From: Octadecabacter algicola
GTDB lineage: Bacteria; Pseudomonadota; Alphaproteobacteria; Rhodobacterales; Rhodobacteraceae
Length of the DNA stretch: 64,000 nt
Assembly (NCBI RefSeq): GCF_021532625.1
Contig: NZ_JAKGAR010000003.1
Span: 124,001-188,000, forward strand
Direction: 5' to 3'
Each line of letters starts with the position of its first letter. Position 1 is the first letter of the stretch. Of this stretch, positions 8,071 through 49,254 are shown piece after piece. Position numbers and translations under genes: made by a program. The notes beneath the pieces were generated by a model. The model saw nothing but the letters and a program-made list of their open reading frames with translations, did no database searches and was not told where the DNA came from.

Positions 8071-8187
8071 GTGATAGTCTCCATTTTGTATTAGGGTGGG
8101 CCATTGGTGATGCGTGTCACCGGCTCCGTTATTGGGGCAGAATTACCCAGGGTAGAAATGGGTGGGCTATGCGCCCACCCGAGTATC

Positions 8188-13283: not shown

Positions 13284-13559
13284 TTAGCTGTGCAGCTTCT
13301 TGTGCGCATCGACGTAAGCGCGCAGCACAGCGTGCATCCGCGTTAGATGCCCATTACCTTGGCCCTTGAAGTATTCAAGCACATCAGGGTCGACCCGCAT
13401 ACTAATGGCGATCTTTGCTTTTGGCGTTTCGATTTCTGCGTTTGCCCAAAAGTCATCGGGCAAATCAACGGCCTCAGCGGACTCAGTTGGAGAGGCAATT
13501 TCGCCTCGGTCCTTCATGGCCCGCAATTCGTCAAGGGATGCGCGTTTTGTATTGCTCAT
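13284..13559 (-). CDS. brnA: BrnA-family antitoxin
   Basis: 91 aa. The C-terminal half (IAISMRVDPDVLEYFKGQG then LTRMHAVLRAYVDAHKK) is the BrnA pattern: a beta strand plus two helices of a ribbon-helix-helix DNA-binding domain. The N-terminal half (RASLDELRAMKDRGEIASP) is the toxin-wrapping part. Known BrnA neutralises BrnT and represses the operon. ATG 13557-13559 overlaps the end of brnT by 29 nt, so the pair is cotranscribed and coupled. Inserted between rpmD and rplO. Confidence 0.85.
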   Translation of the reverse strand: MSNTKRASLDELRAMKDRGEIASPTESAEAVDLPDDFWANAEIETPKAKIAISMRVDPDVLEYFKGQGNGHLTRMHAVLRAYVDAHKKLHS

Positions 13560-13800
13560 ACTCTTTACGGCCTCCTGGCCATGCTGAGATGATGCGGGTG
13601 GCCTCACCACGCATCGTGTAAGTTACGACATAGACAGTCTCATCCGTCATGCCGAGAGCGATCCTTCGCTCCTCTCCATAGTCTTTACGATCATCAATTC
13701 GGGTCAGGATTGGCCCTTCAAAGATCAATGCAGCATCAAGAAAGTCGGCGCCGTGTTTTGCGAGATTCTGCACTCGCTTCGCTTCGTTCCACTCGAACAT
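13531..13800 (-). CDS. brnT: BrnT-family toxin
   Basis: 89 aa from ATG 13798-13800; a GTG four codons earlier is possible. BrnT is a RelE-like-fold ribonuclease toxin. The family pattern is clear: FEWNEAKRVQNLAKHGADF at the N-terminus, FEGPILTRIDD, YGEERRIALGMTDETVYVVTYT, and RIISAW near the end. The usual Arg after RIISA is Trp here, followed by PGG before RKEYEQY, so catalytic competence is uncertain. Toxin precedes antitoxin, the normal brnTA order, and a near-consensus promoter lies upstream. Confidence 0.85.
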   Translation of the reverse strand: MFEWNEAKRVQNLAKHGADFLDAALIFEGPILTRIDDRKDYGEERRIALGMTDETVYVVTYTMRGEATRIISAWPGGRKEYEQYKTRIP

Positions 13801-13884
13801 CAAAAGTCTCACATATGGTAGTTAAAATAGTTTTTGCTTTCATCTTTACTCTCCATAGTTTGCGCTCTTACGGCACCTCTCTTG

Positions 13885-27015: not shown

Positions 27016-27101
27016 GTTTGCTACTTCCGTTTGCTTGGCGGACCTCTTGCGAAGCCCTGATGTTTATAGGCCCCCGTAGGTGCCCGATGATATGTTCTCG
27101 C

Positions 27102-43034: not shown

Positions 43035-46000
43035 TTATTCATCATCCTCCGCAGCATCCAAGAGTTCCATATTAAGGCCAAGGCCTCGGACTTCTTTCAC
43101 GAGAACGTTGAACGATTCTGGCACGCCAGCTTCAAAGTTGTCTTCGCCCTTAACGATGCTTTCGTAGACTTTCGTCCGGCCAGCCACGTCATCGGATTTC
43201 ACAGTCAGCATCTCTTGCAGCGTGTATGCCGCGCCATATGCTTCGAGTGCCCAGACTTCCATTTCCCCGAAACGCTGACCACCGAACTGGGCTTTACCAC
43301 CCAGCGGCTGTTGCGTGACCAAGGAGTATGGTCCTGTGGAACGTGCGTGGATCTTGTCATCGACAAGGTGGTGCAGTTTCAGCAGGTACTTAACGCCTAC
43401 TGTAACCTTACGGGAGAATTGTTCACCCGTGCGGCCGTCAAACAGCACCGATTGACCAGATGTATCGAACCCTGCGCGTGTCAGCGCATCGTTGACGTCA
43501 GCTTCTTTCGCGCCGTCAAAGACTGGCGTTGCGATTGGAACACCACGTGTGACGTTGCCCGCGGCTTCGATCAGTTCATCGTCGGTCATGTCAGCCACGC
43601 CCTCAGAATAAACATCTTCACCGTAAGCAATCTTCATCGCTTCTTTCACAGGTGTCAGATCACCGTTGCGACGGTATTCACCGAGCGCTTCGTCAATCTC
43701 AAGGCCCAGACCGCGAGCGGCCCAACCCATGTGAGTTTCCAGAATCTGACCAACGTTCATACGTGATGGAACGCCGAGTGGGTTCAGACAGAAGTCGACA
43801 GGTGTGCCGTCTTGCAAGAACGGCATGTCTTCCATTGGGACTACCTTGGAAATAACACCTTTGTTCCCGTGACGACCCGCCATCTTATCGCCCGGCTGAA
43901 GCTTACGCTTCACCGCAACGAAGACTTTAACCATCTTCATCACGCCCGGTGGCAGATCATCGCCGCGGCGCACTTTTTCGACCTTATCTTCGAACCGTGC
44001 GTCGAGCAGTTTCTTCTGCGCTTCGTACTGTTCGTTCAGGGCTTCTACGATCTGTGCGTCGTCTTCTTCTTTCAGAGCCAGCTGCCACCAGTGGCTGCGT
44101 GGAAGCTCTTCGAGCATCGCGCCGTCGATTGTTGCGCCGGTTTTGATGCCTTTCGGGCCCTTCGCAACAGTCTTGCCTTCGATCATAGAACGCAGACGCG
44201 CGTAGATGTTACGATCAAGGATCGTCATCTCATCGTCGCGGTCACGTGCAAGACGTTCGACTTCTTCACGTTCGATCTGAAGCGCACGTTCGTCTTTTTC
44301 AACGCCGTGGCGGTTGAACACACGAACCTCAACGACCGTACCAAAATCACCCGGCTTAACGCGCAGGGATGTGTCACGAACGTCAGATGCTTTCTCACCA
44401 AAGATGGCGCGGAGAAGCTTTTCTTCCGGCGTCATCGGGCTTTCGCCCTTCGGTGTGATCTTACCAACGAGGATGTCACCCGGCTCAACTTCGGCGCCGA
44501 TGTAAACGATACCTGCTTCGTCGAGGTTGCGCAGGGCTTCCTCACCGACGTTTGGAATATCGCGTGTGATTTCCTCTGGCCCAAGCTTGGTGTCACGTGC
44601 AGCGACTTCGAACTCTTCGATGTGGATCGAAGTGAAGACGTCGTCACGCACGATACGCTCGGAGATCAGAATGGAGTCTTCGTAGTTGTAGCCGTTCCAA
44701 GGCATAAACGCGACGACCACGTTTTTACCGAGAGCCAATTCACCGATGTCCGTGGATGGACCGTCAGCAATAACTTCGCCCTTAAGAACCGTGTCACCAA
44801 CCTTCACCAATGGGCGCTGGTTGATACATGTGTTCTGGTTGGAACGCTGGAACTTGCGCATGCGGTAGATGTCAACGCCTGGATCACCAACCTCAAGGTC
44901 GGATGTAGCGCGAACAACGATACGTGTCGCATCAACTTGGTCGATGATACCGCCGCGTTTCGCCATGATCGCAGCGCCGGAATCCCGTGCGACCACTTCT
45001 TCGATACCGGTACCAACAAGCGGAGCTTCTGCCTGAAGCAGCGGAACCGCCTGACGCATCATGTTCGAACCCATCAAGGCACGGTTGGCGTCATCGTTTT
45101 CAAGGAACGGGATCAAGGAGGCCGCAACGGAGACCAACTGCTTTGGTGAAACGTCGATCAGATCAACAGATGAGTTCTGAGCGAGTGTGTATTCACCGTT
45201 CTGACGTGTGGACACGAGGTCGTTCACGAAAGACATGTCTTCGTTCAGGTTCGCGTTGGCCTGCGCCACTGTGTGACGCATTTCTTCGGTCGCGGACATG
45301 TAGTGAACTTCGTCCGTTACCTTGCCATCTGTGACAACGCGGTATGGTGTTTCGATGAAGCCATACTTGTTGACGCGGGCAAATGTTGCGAGCGAGTTGA
45401 TCAGACCAATGTTCGGGCCTTCCGGTGTCTCAATCGGACACATACGACCGTAGTGCGTTGGGTGAACGTCACGAACCTCAAAGCCTGCACGTTCACGTGT
45501 CAGACCACCTGGCCCAAGCGCGGACAAGCGGCGCTTGTGCGTGACTTCGGACAACGGGTTGGTTTGGTCCATGAACTGAGACAGCTGCGAGGAACCGAAG
45601 AATTCACGAACCGCAGCAGCAGCTGGCTTCGCGTTGATCAGGTCCTGAGGCATCACTGTGTCGATTTCGACGCTGGACATACGCTCCTTGATGGCGCGCT
45701 CCATGCGAAGCAGACCAACACGGTACTGGTTTTCCATCAGCTCGCCAACGGAACGCACACGACGGTTACCAAGGTGGTCAATGTCGTCCACGTCGCCCTT
45801 GCCGTCGCGCAGTTCAACCAGCGCTTTGATGCAGGAAACGATGTCTTCTTTGCGCAATGTGCGCATTGTGTCTTCGGCATCCAAGGCAAGACGCATGTTC
45901 ATCTTAACGCGACCAACTGCGGACAGGTCGTAACGCTCAGAGTCGAAGAACAGGCTGTCAAACAATGTGGAAGCGGCATCAACGGTGGGCGGCTCGCCCG

Positions 46001-47177
46001 GGCGCATAACGCGGTAGATGTCCATAAGCGCAGTTTCGCGACCCATGTTTTTGTCTGCCGCCATTGTGTTACGCATGTATGGGCCAACATTGACGTTATC
46101 GATGTCCAGAACTGGGATCGTTTTAACGCCAGCATCAACGAGTTCTTTCAGCGTACCGCCGATCAATTCGTCTGCTTTGTCGTACTCTAGCGTCAACTCG
46201 TCACCGGCTTCGACGTAAATCGCACCGGTTTCTTCGTTGATGATGTCTTCGGCTGCGAATTTGCCGACGATCTGCTCATAAGGAACGAGCAGCTCAGTGA
46301 CCTCACCGGCGTCAATCAGAGCCTTAACGGCACGTGGAGTGACTTTCTTACCGGCTTCAGCAATCACTTCACCAGTCTTCGCATCGACAAGATCGAACGT
46401 CGGGCGCGTACCGCGCACGCGCTCTGGGAAGAACTTGGTTTTCCAAGCTTTCGCCTTCTTGTCGAATGTATAGTCAACCGTATCGTAGTAGGCGTTCATG
46501 ATCGCCTCTTGGTCGAGACCAAGCGCGTACAGAAGCGTCGTTACCGGCAATTTGCGGCGACGGTCGATGCGGCAGAACACGAGGTCTTTGGCGTCGAATT
46601 CGAAATCCAACCAAGAGCCACGGTAAGGAATGATACGACATGCGAACAACAGCTTACCCGAGCTGTGTGTTTTACCCTTGTCGTGGTCAAAGAAAACGCC
46701 AGGTGAGCGGTGCATCTGGGAAACGATTACACGCTCAGTACCGTTCACAACGAACGTGCCGTTTGGCGTCATCAAAGGCATGTCGCCCATGAAAACGTCT
46801 TGTTCCTTGATGTCCTTAACCGACTTCGCGCCAGTGTCTTCATCCACATCAAACACGATCAGACGGAGAGTAACCTTAAGCGGTGCGGCATATGTCATGT
46901 CGCGCTGCTGGCACTCTTCAACGTCATACTTCGGCTTTTCGAGCTCGTACTTTACGAATTCGAGAACGGAAGTTTCGTTAAAGTCTTTAATTGGGAAGAC
47001 CGACTGAAAAACACCTTTGATGCCTTCGCCGTCAAGCGGCGTGTCACTGTCGCCTGAGCGCAGGAACAGATCATAGGATGATTTCTGAACCTCAATGAGG
47101 TTCGGCATGTCGAGGACTTCGCGGATTTTTCCGTAGTATTTACGGAGACGTTTCTGACCGAGGAACGTTTGCGCCAT
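43035..47177 (-). CDS. rpoB: DNA-directed RNA polymerase subunit beta
   Basis: 1380 aa from ATG 47175-47177 ([18 protein letters not shown]); an upstream GTG lies inside the AAAGGTG ribosome-binding site. The rifampicin region [20 protein letters not shown] with [10 protein letters not shown] following carries wild-type residues. C-terminal [21 protein letters not shown] is complete. Promoter and terminator-like region lie about 380 nt upstream. Separated from rplL by the VapBC45 pair and an orphan BrnA-like gene. Confidence 0.98.
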
Positions 47178-47552
47178 TTGGTTGGACACCTTTCAAATTC
47201 TCACCGGCGCACGAACAGTTGGGCGACTGCACGGGCGACCATACGAGACGACAAAAAAGGGGTCCATTCTCGCCACGCGACCCATTGCGCAGCTCTCGAC
47301 CCCATATCCTGCCTTGGAAAACACCCCGAAACTTCAGGAGGCTTACCAAGGTAGGCCTGCTCAAAACGCTTTGCCGGCCCCTGAAAACAAACGGTTTTTA
47401 GGGGGTGAAGTGGCTCCATGCTTCAAGACAGAAAGAGCGGCCCCGAATCAATCGAAGCCGCGTGAACCTGCTAAATAGGTTGTGATTAAGGAAATGACAA
47501 GAGGCCGAACGCCATCGTGCGCCAGACATCGTGCGCCGATTTCCTTCTCCTA
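47178..47552 (-). other. rpoB leader (gene-free)
   Basis: About 370 nt upstream of rpoB without a gene I can support. Short open frames in both strands have no ribosome-binding site or family match. Long leaders in front of rpoB are unusual; it may hold a regulatory RNA structure, but I cannot name one. Confidence 0.4.
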
Positions 47553-47581
47553 ATCTTGGGACAAAGAGCACCCAAGGTCAA
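47553..47581 (-). promoter_or_regulatory. Possible promoter of rpoB
   Basis: Minus strand: -35 TTGACC (47576-47581), 17-bp spacer, -10 CAAGAT (47553-47558), a poor -10 with three matches. Same spacing as the ribosomal-unit promoters but no strong C tract. Directly upstream of the -35 lie four 11-bp repeats. Confidence 0.4.
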
Positions 47582-47592
47582 GAAAAAGCGCA

Positions 47593-47636
47593 TATGGGAC
47601 CAGTATGGGTCCGGTATGGTTACGATATGGTTATGA
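47593..47636. repeat. Four tandem 11-bp repeats between rpoB promoter and orphan brnA
   Basis: Units at 47593, 47604, 47615 and 47626, each beginning TATGG (consensus TATGGKTMCGA; first two TATGGG, last two TATGGTTA). The 11-bp period keeps each unit on about the same helix face. They end 71 nt before the BrnA-like start on the plus strand and begin 11 nt upstream of the rpoB -35, so they could be operators for either side. Confidence 0.7.
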
Positions 47637-47707: not shown

Positions 47708-48115
47708 ATGCGTGAAGCGAACCCAAAACAGATGACAAAAACAGACCTCAAACATTGGGGGCTGGGCGTCGATGCCATGAAGATGATGGACTACGAGCTG
47801 ATGGGGTTCCTGCACGAAACCCGCGCCCTGCCCCGCGACTGGGACAAGATTTGGGAGGATCAGGACAAACGAGACCCCAAACGCAAGAAGGTGACGATTT
47901 CACTGGATGATGACGTGGTGCGGTTCTTCAAAGGCCTCGGCCCCGGGTATCAACCCCGCATGAACCGCGTGCTGCGGGCGTTCATGCATTTCCGGCTGGC
48001 GAAGCTGATCGAAGGGCCGGACACGATGGATTACATTTTGCGCCCCGACGCGGTGCTGGAAAAAGCCCGGATGCAACCGAAGTGGGGCGATACGCAGGTG
48101 ATGTTGGAGGAGTGA
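47708..48115 (+). CDS. Orphan BrnA-like antitoxin/regulator
   Basis: 135 aa from ATG 47708 with AGGAG 7 nt upstream. The C-terminal two-thirds has the BrnA pattern (KKVTISLDDDVVRFFKGLG then GYQPRMNRVLRAFM), a ribbon-helix-helix fold, with an extra C-terminal extension (YILRPDAVLEKARMQPKWGD). No BrnT partner is adjacent. Plausibly a stand-alone DNA-binding regulator. Tandem repeats lie in its upstream region. Confidence 0.75.
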   Translation: MREANPKQMTKTDLKHWGLGVDAMKMMDYELMGFLHETRALPRDWDKIWEDQDKRDPKRKKVTISLDDDVVRFFKGLGPGYQPRMNRVLRAFMHFRLAKLIEGPDTMDYILRPDAVLEKARMQPKWGDTQVMLEE

Positions 48116-48131: not shown

Positions 48132-48530
48132 TCAGGCCGAGGTAAATTTAGTGCCCTTGCCGATCGGCAAAATAAACATACCATTTGCATTATTTTGACG
48201 CTGGAGCACGATCTTGTCCCACTGCCACAGAATAGTTGCCGCTTGCTCGTTTATCTTTTGCTTCTGGACCGTTTTGGCAAGGTAAAACGCAACAACCCCA
48301 GATCGCAAGATCGCTGCTTTTTCAGGAGGCCGTTTAGCGTTCCTCAGGTCTTTACTTATTACTACCCAGTCTTCTTCTTTTGCCAGTTCAGAAAAATACT
48401 CGACATCCCCGATATTTACAGGGAACTTGTCTTTCAGCGCGAACGCTTCATGGCCTGATCTAGCAATCACTTCGTTTAAAGCTCTTGCGATTGCAGGCGG
48501 CATGTTATGATCAAACAGAACTTTTACCAC
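48132..48530 (-). CDS. VapC45-type PIN-like toxin
   Basis: 132 aa. VKVLFDHNMPPAIARAL gives the DxN start (Asp7, Asn9), then GDVEYFSELAKEEDWVVISKD gives further acidic residues (Asp42, Glu48, Asp61), the PIN-like nuclease pattern of VapC45/DUF5615 proteins. Family members are ribonuclease toxins. Start overlaps the antitoxin end by 20 nt. A+T-rich, unlike the ribosomal genes. Confidence 0.78.
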   Translation of the reverse strand: MVKVLFDHNMPPAIARALNEVIARSGHEAFALKDKFPVNIGDVEYFSELAKEEDWVVISKDLRNAKRPPEKAAILRSGVVAFYLAKTVQKQKINEQAATILWQWDKIVLQRQNNANGMFILPIGKGTKFTSA

Positions 48531-49254
48531 TGGCCTGATCTAATTGCCTCTCATAATTGATTGCGTCTTTAATTAGTGCTTTCGGTACCTCGTAAATTTC
48601 CGAAAGATAGGAAAAGTTCTCAAATGACTGAAATTCAGAGTATAGGGTTTCGGTTGAAACACCATATTCATCCAAAATAGGTGTTCCAAACTGCCGTTTT
48701 GGGTCAATAACAATAGTATCTGTGCGAGCCGGCCGCCAGCGCGCAACATGGCCGCGATCATATTCTAGGTTTTTCAATGAAGGCAAAACTACCTTGGCGA
48801 AAACTTTTTGCCCAGGGTACCTTTTTGACAGACTGACTAACTCACCGTCATTCTCGATTGCTTGCATCAATATCTGCGAGCCGTCCGTTTGAAATTTCTT
48901 CGATGAAAGCGGTTTTTCAATATCAAACGTCTCTTGAGCAAAGGCAATCGCATAGCGGATAGCCTGCATTGTAATTCCCGCCCGACGCAAAGCCCTCACA
49001 ACACGTAGTTCTACCAGATCCGCAAAACTAAGTTCGGCTGTGTCATCTATTTCCTGATAGTATGCATTCCACAATGGTTCAGATGGCCCACTTCCTCGCG
49101 TCCAGCGCCTCACGTCTTGGGGCGAACCGCCAATCAGTCTGGCAGCTTGCCGCGGCGTGTAAATGCCTCGGCCTAGAATTTCAAAGTCTAATGGCAAGGG
49201 ACCTCCGATAGAGCGCTTTTCCTCTTTAAGGAAATTCTTACGCGAGTTCCGCAT
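48511..49254 (-). CDS. VapB45-type antitoxin (MerR-like HTH + DUF433)
   Basis: 247 aa. HTH near residues 30-52 (IYTPRQAARLIGGSPQDVRRW). Middle helical region. C-terminal DUF433-type part (about 175-240: IVIDPKRQFGTPILDEYGV, VPKALIKDAINYERQL). Size and order match VapB45, which pairs with a 130-140-aa VapC45. Antitoxin first, toxin second. ATG 49252-49254 has no clear ribosome-binding site, so the mRNA may be leaderless or start elsewhere. Two inverted repeats lie just upstream. Confidence 0.75.
   Translation of the reverse strand: MRNSRKNFLKEEKRSIGGPLPLDFEILGRGIYTPRQAARLIGGSPQDVRRWTRGSGPSEPLWNAYYQEIDDTAELSFADLVELRVVRALRRAGITMQAIRYAIAFAQETFDIEKPLSSKKFQTDGSQILMQAIENDGELVSLSKRYPGQKVFAKVVLPSLKNLEYDRGHVARWRPARTDTIVIDPKRQFGTPILDEYGVSTETLYSEFQSFENFSYLSEIYEVPKALIKDAINYERQLDQASGKSSV

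Follow-up and report, generated by a model that had tools for sequence, protein, structure and literature searches.

A phased four-unit repeat array upstream of an orphan brnA-like gene in Octadecabacter algicola and its counterparts across related chromosomes

Four phased 11-bp units precede an orphan brnA-like gene

The array lies between rpoB and a gene for a BrnA-like ribbon-helix-helix (RHH) protein in Octadecabacter algicola, within a 64,000-nucleotide stretch of DNA that was analysed as a whole and is called the window here. The features of this region are as follows.

43035..47189, minus strand: rpoB, named from sequence; open reading frame from GTG 47189, with an internal ATG at 47177 that gives MAQTFLGQ
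47208..47302, minus strand: Rhodo-rpoB leader RNA (RF03074; passes the gathering score), located between rpoB and its candidate promoter
47576..47581, minus strand: TTGACC, candidate rpoB -35 hexamer, with 11 bases between hexamer and array
47593..47636, plus strand: array of four 11-bp units (TATGGGACCAG TATGGGTCCGG TATGGTTACGA TATGGTTATGA), probably the brnA-like gene's operator; eight arrays of this kind are present in the genome, this one included
47708..48115, plus strand: BrnA-like RHH protein of 135 aa, Pfam BrnA_antitoxin (PF14384), E 1.7e-13

The word TATGG starts at 47593, 47604, 47615 and 47626 on the plus strand, and direct reading confirmed a spacing of exactly 11 bp, as described in the initial annotation. 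Tandem Repeats Finder reported the array as two overlapping rows with a period of 11. It is the sole place in the 64-kb window with an exact four-fold 5-mer at any fixed period from 8 to 15; a repeat of this kind occurred in one of 300 first-order Markov sequences of equal length. Searching for three TATGG words at 11-bp spacing resulted in two zero-mismatch matches in the window, both inside the array, and one further overlapping match with three mismatches (chance mean: 0.40 matches at three or fewer mismatches).

The brnA-like gene starts 115 bp downstream of the first base of the array, which is probably its operator. The encoded protein carries N- and C-terminal regions outside the BrnA domain, and its predicted DNA-facing strand reads K61-V-T-I-S65. 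The monomer model from AlphaFold2 was of poor quality (pLDDT 65), and a PDB fold search with this model gave no match at E 0.001 or better. A sequence search against solved structures yielded one match only (E 0.37), and the NCBIfam search returned no family.

Describing the gene as an orphan was correct: no brnT lies beside it, and the next genes, both on the minus strand, encode a PIN_10 protein and a MerR/DUF433-like protein. The label antitoxin-like holds only in part, since homology to BrnA (PF14384) is clear, but BrnT is not adjacent and a canonical brnT-brnA pair is encoded elsewhere in the window. This pair (13284-13812, minus strand; BrnT 6.4e-22, BrnA 8.3e-12) stands in contrast to the orphan gene. 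The PIN_10 and MerR/DUF433-like genes (48132-49254, minus strand), which share a strand and overlap at their ends, are located between the rplL-like and the brnA-like gene and are a possible toxin-antitoxin-like pair.

The rpoB neighbourhood is special to some Octadecabacter

The array had been placed directly upstream of the rpoB -35 element. A fitting hexamer is indeed present 11 bases away, but a promoter scan near TTGACC 47576-47581 found nothing above threshold, which leaves an rpoB promoter beside the array no more than plausible. Besides the rpoB leader, an L2-Alphaproteobacteria ribosomal protein leader (RF03142) was detected at 27018-27085 on the minus strand.

Homologous loci across the Rhodobacteraceae were collected by protein searches in relatives and in named genomes; from the named genomes, 80 of 99 confirmed places were kept. 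Within flanks of up to 3 kb (shorter in about ten of the 80 loci), rpoB was found near the brnA-like gene in only four (L230, L232-L234), all of them Octadecabacter, indicating that the rpoB neighbourhood is special to some members of this genus. A downstream gene on the opposite strand belongs to one cluster in 43/80 loci; the cluster representative is a carbamoyl-phosphate synthase large chain, and in other genera the neighbour cluster named is carB-like.

We also inspected rpoB itself in the genus, including the window's own genome (G000), O. dasysiphoniae (G016), Pseudooctadecabacter jejudonensis (G011), O. ascidiaceicola (G001) and Octadecabacter sp. B2R22 (G005). These five genomes and G010 have an array at a similar position upstream of rpoB, and P. 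jejudonensis keeps it there even though its brnA-like gene is encoded on another contig. This conserved placement would fit direct regulation of rpoB by the BrnA-like protein, as the initial annotation had proposed. Among the ten rpoB loci of the genus with a located start, however, four have no upstream array (G003, G004, G008, G018); seven further loci, in which the rpoB start was not located, stand outside this count. Together with the 4/80 neighbourhoods and the presence of arrays elsewhere, this makes a direct link quite improbable. The proposed connection between an antitoxin-like regulator and RNA polymerase expression found no support, and rpoB-specific regulation was set aside as the main role.

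The upstream array is conserved and its unit tracks residues 61 and 65

Conservation in relatives, which the initial annotation had suggested checking, was analysed in the 220 bp before the gene for 71 named or window loci of alignment A2, using periods from 7 to 20. A period of 11 was uniquely best in 59/71 loci and tied in three, while another period was best in nine. For held-out loci, it was uniquely best in 14 of 16 non-duplicates and tied in one. The upstream array is therefore retained across the family, with a unit that varies by species, and all 71 homologues match PF14384. Unit forms among the 65 loci used for the comparison below were GTACAC (18), GTATGG (10), ATGCAC (8), GTGCAC (6) and rarer ones. 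In many operators, e.g. L235, L246 and L248, the last unit is near-palindromic (GTGCGCAC, GTACGTAC, GTATGTAC).

Protein columns were ranked by their excess mutual information with the unit, using 65 of the 71 loci (six were dropped because of low unit agreement). Residues 61 and 65 ranked first and second of 128 columns. Residue 61 came first for bases 4-5 and 5-6 and residue 65 for base 1; for base 3 they ranked 6th and 44th, respectively. In RHH proteins, alternating residues of the strand contact the major groove. Residue 63, which is also expected to face the DNA, is a nearly invariant T and ranked 68th against the complete unit. Broadly, CAC accompanies R61, TGG accompanies K61, CA(G/T) accompanies P61 or S61, and GTAG accompanies Q61; G at base 1 is seen with R65, and ATGCAC with R61 plus a small residue at 65. 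The distant protein L284 (K61/S65) also has GTATGG. Exceptions include L264, L267, L268, L273, L274 and L304; for L253 and L255, the unit was parsed in a shifted register.

For the held-out test of this code, 28 loci were read, of which 16 were left after dropping 12 duplicates. The unit was predicted exactly in 7/11 loci with a parsed strand and a clear array. In L365 (K61), an eighth match, the TATGG units were parsed out of register by the script; L372 and L383 were off by one base and L385 was wrong. Shared ancestry inflates the association between residue and unit, and the control for this is the ranking against other columns of the same proteins. Across the family, the unit sequence tracks residues 61 and 65.

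The earlier suggestion that the repeats are protein-binding sites, perhaps for the adjacent gene product, is well supported by this covariation, by the held-out loci and by the match of gene and array within the genus (see below). Because unit and residues change together, we infer that the BrnA-like protein probably binds the array. The array would then be a multi-dimer site with four binding positions on about one face of the helix, probably with one RHH dimer per 11-bp unit in the manner of ParR on parC, and could act as the gene's own operator in an autoregulatory loop.

Gene type matches array type within genomes

In the 11 genomes of the genus that are at least 90% complete, gene type matches array type. 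G000, G005, G011 and G016 have only a K61 gene and only TATGG arrays, while G006 and G014 have only an R61 gene, together with GTACAC arrays; in G014 the gene is read as two pieces in different frames, and two single-mismatch TATGG matches were found. Three genomes (G001, G013, G015) encode both K61- and R61-type genes and carry both array types, and are possible intermediates of a specificity switch. G003 (A61) has mainly GTATAG-type arrays, along with two GTACAC-type sites and three TATGG matches. G008, with an estimated completeness of 100%, has neither the gene nor either of the searched array types, indicating that the system can be lost. Among less complete genomes, arrays were seen and the gene was not found in G002, G017 and G018; gene and arrays are present in G004, G009 and G010, the last with GTACAC matches and no R61 gene found; neither was found in G007 and G012.

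Family-wide, a GTACAC-array match was detected in 10/296 genomes. Six of the eight genomes with at least two such matches have a BrnA-like hit at 1e-12, compared to 95/296 overall. The other two, G260 (17 matches) and G169 (2 matches), gave no hit at this cut-off; a missed gene or another reader protein is possible for G260.

A backward-read TATGG pattern served as control and gave 43+20 matches against 58+25 for TATGG itself in G016, 31+16 against 29+12 in G013, and 22+16 against 25+19 in G015. The high control count in the G016 arrays is explained by units that read GGTATGG. In the 35 neighbourhoods of G016, the genome for which placement was determined, every one of the 63 control matches and 83 TATGG matches lies within an array.

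Arrays of the same kind are dispersed and occupy orthologous positions

Clustering of hits resulted in 35 arrays in G016, about 40 in G011, 32 in G006 and 8 in G000, where seven places besides the brnA-like upstream region carry the same kind of array. Sequence logos show four units per array, the outer two being degenerate in G006. The flanks share almost no sequence, apart from faint signals, for example a run rich in A that precedes unit 1 in G011, and the non-core bases of the units differ from array to array. The lack of common flanks argues against recent copies of a larger mobile element.

To compare neighbourhoods, the proteins within 4 kb of each array were used, and a pair was counted on one consistent gene. 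Neighbourhoods shared with matching side and relative orientation amounted to 22 pairs for G006-G016 (covering 21/32 G006 sites; the brnA-like gene is the sole basis of one pair), 16 for G011-G016 (from 25 G011 sites), 10 for G006-G011 and 7 for G000-G016 (7 of the 8 G000 sites). With stricter matching, 21/21, 16/17, 10/11 and 6/7 shared pairs, in the same order, were mostly consistent in side and orientation, and the nearest shared gene was at the same distance within 100 bp in 19, 15, 10 and 6 pairs. Units at these shared positions are GTACAC, TATGG or GTATGG(C). Orthologous positions with different units indicate that the specificity changed at many places together.

One orthologous site is empty in the window:

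8154..8187, no strand assigned: gap between the rplQ-like and the rpoA-like gene; an array is present there in G016 (L202) and G011 (L216) and absent in the window

Array orientation follows GC skew rather than gene direction

The strand of each array was compared with the sign of the GC skew in neighbourhoods of about 20 kb. Both agreed for 35/35 arrays in G016 (all sites), for 23/25 in G011 (out of about 40 sites; both exceptions with |skew| <=0.005) and for 29/32 in G006 (exceptions with skew +0.006, +0.043 and +0.028). Agreement was 7/8 in G003 (8 of 13 sites), 4/5 for loci of G001, G010 and G015 (5.8-10 kb) and 5/8 in G000 (10-kb loci and the window). The window array itself, on the plus strand in a region with a skew of about -0.03, runs against the local polarity. 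All nine G011 sites without a G016 counterpart agree with the skew. Where G006 arrays matched on both strands, the chosen strand was the one reading GTACAC, on which the first unit resembles GGCACA and the last resembles GTATG.

Replichores of G006 were defined by taking parS as the marker of ori and the skew switch as that of ter. The right arm has 12 plus and 4 minus arrays and the left arm 2 plus and 14 minus (Fisher P 0.001). In some cases an array runs against its replichore while agreeing with the local skew; the polarity may therefore be historical. Furthermore, many positions are orthologous and the polarity across species is therefore largely one inherited fact. Composition bias as its cause was ruled out: the strand that carries a GTACAC array has a slight excess of C within the array (skew -0.078) but lies on the G-rich side.

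The arrays lie about 80-145 kb apart on average. Spacing was more regular than random in G016 (CV 0.50 vs 0.90, P 1e-4; 28 gaps, single-array contigs left out) and G011 (CV 0.56 vs 0.93, P 8e-4; 29 gaps, contigs C11 and C13 left out), and not regular in G006 (CV 1.14 vs 0.96). A nucleoid-occlusion factor of the SlmA/Noc type, for which exclusion from ter is typical, was considered and rejected, as G006 arrays lie close to the skew switch (2.42-2.75 Mb).

Gene context was determined for 60 arrays of G016 and G011 with gene calls from a simple script; intergenic gaps are short. Forty arrays are in tandem gaps, eight in convergent and four in divergent ones, and eight are wholly inside a called gene. 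A gene 5' end is within 150 bp of 44/60 arrays and a gene 3' end within 50 bp of 37/60; judged by position, a promoter role is thus conceivable.

These data bear on the main rival explanation, an ordinary regulon in which the BrnA-like protein represses or activates transcription and every array is the operator of its neighbours, rpoB included. It draws on the promoter-like distance of the array to the brnA-like gene, on the 52/60 arrays that are not wholly within a called gene, on the frequent nearby 5' ends and on positions conserved along with their neighbours. However, orientation follows GC skew and not gene direction (the array strand agrees with the local majority gene strand in 24/60 cases), the divergent gaps expected for promoters hold only 4/60 arrays, with the others in tandem or convergent gaps or gene interiors, 3' ends are as close as described above, and spacing is regular in two genomes. 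We regard a regulon as unlikely.

A mobile or self-copying REP-like repeat, inserted with a replication-strand bias, would account for the strand preference, the proximity to 3' ends and the absence at one orthologous site. Such an element is hard to reconcile with non-core bases that vary between arrays and with orthologous positions that hold different units per species, in step with the protein; it was set aside owing to the flanks, which have almost no sequence in common, and is highly improbable.

What the data favour instead, with rather better than even confidence, is an autoregulated RHH protein together with chromosome-wide oriented landmark arrays, the set being small and perhaps decaying in O. 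algicola. This reading, in which we infer binding, autoregulation and the chromosomal role of the arrays, is consistent with three observations: array polarity, even spacing in two of the genomes, and orientation that takes no account of gene direction. In related Octadecabacter, the BrnA-like protein would read about 30-40 equivalent arrays, nearly all pointing from ori to ter with the leading strand, and the window array would be the local copy of this chromosome-wide set. Chromosome organisation or segregation, with the arrays as oriented landmarks or anchors, would be their most likely role, in preference to promoter function in a regulon.

For O. algicola, the safest statement is that it has a brnA-like operator and a small set of arrays that may be a remnant or decaying. 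It is somewhat unlikely, though conceivable, that only this operator matters and that the other arrays in the genome are relics of a fading chromosomal system. Eight arrays against 35 in G016, the missing array at the rplQ-like/rpoA-like gap and a polarity of just 5/8 point in this direction, but all four TATGG cores are still perfect in five of the eight, which speaks against prolonged neglect.

Comparison with known systems

The closest parallels are RHH proteins of DNA segregation. In type II plasmid partition, ParR dimers bind short direct repeats upstream of their operon, one dimer per iteron, and ParR on parC represses the operon while forming the segregation complex (PMC5016525). By analogy with ParR on parC, the phased units suggest RHH dimers side by side (PMC5016525). 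An RHH protein with phased direct repeats upstream of its own gene is present here too, binding being predicted. ParR/parC differs in comprising one plasmid locus and a ParM motor, as opposed to many chromosomal arrays of four units. No ParM-type motor gene is found in an operon with the brnA-like gene in the window, where convergent PIN_10 and MerR-like genes follow, and no ParA-type partner gene lies beside it. In plasmid R1, the parC repeat is 11 bp long.

SegB, an RHH protein for chromosome segregation in Sulfolobales, binds upstream of the operon that encodes it, and ChIP-seq in two species gave 32 or 39 scattered peaks (PMC12284271). An RHH protein that reads tens of scattered chromosomal sites, its own upstream region among them, would thus have a precedent in SegB. 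Predicted sites of this kind number in the tens in G016, G011 and G006, and G000 has 8. SegB sites are 13-bp palindromes and mostly intragenic, and SegB has a ParA-like partner, SegA (PMC12284271); the arrays here are phased four-unit direct repeats, mostly intergenic and replication-oriented.

KOPS are oriented from origin to ter (PMC2680272) and AIMS lie on leading strands (PMC5993296). Orientation with replication is common to these motifs and our arrays: the leading-strand bias is strong in G016, G011, G006 and G003, and 5/8 in G000. KOPS and AIMS are 8-bp words that become more abundant towards ter, in contrast to rare 44-bp arrays that are tied to a dedicated, covarying protein. Both motifs occur at high copy number. 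The BrnA antitoxin of BrnTA shares the PF14384 domain, but the protein described here has no adjacent BrnT and differs by its extra N- and C-terminal regions, the upstream array and the dispersed sites.

Neither such arrays nor an orphan BrnA-like protein appeared in titles and abstract openings of the open literature, among the matches listed. There is nearly, if not quite, an even chance that replication-oriented four-iteron arrays and a BrnA-family RHH reader, with protein and dozens of sites switched together several times, constitute an undescribed bacterial landmark or segregation system. If true, roseobacters would use an oriented chromosome landmark system built from an antitoxin-family protein, and these genomes would preserve, as a natural record, the joint change of specificity in a DNA-binding protein and some 30-40 sites. 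Purified protein would allow a direct test of the code that links residues 61 and 65 to bases, and array polarity offers a way into the question of what senses chromosome direction in these bacteria. As regards array structure, many arrays in G011 are followed by an inverted half (TGGC...GCCA).
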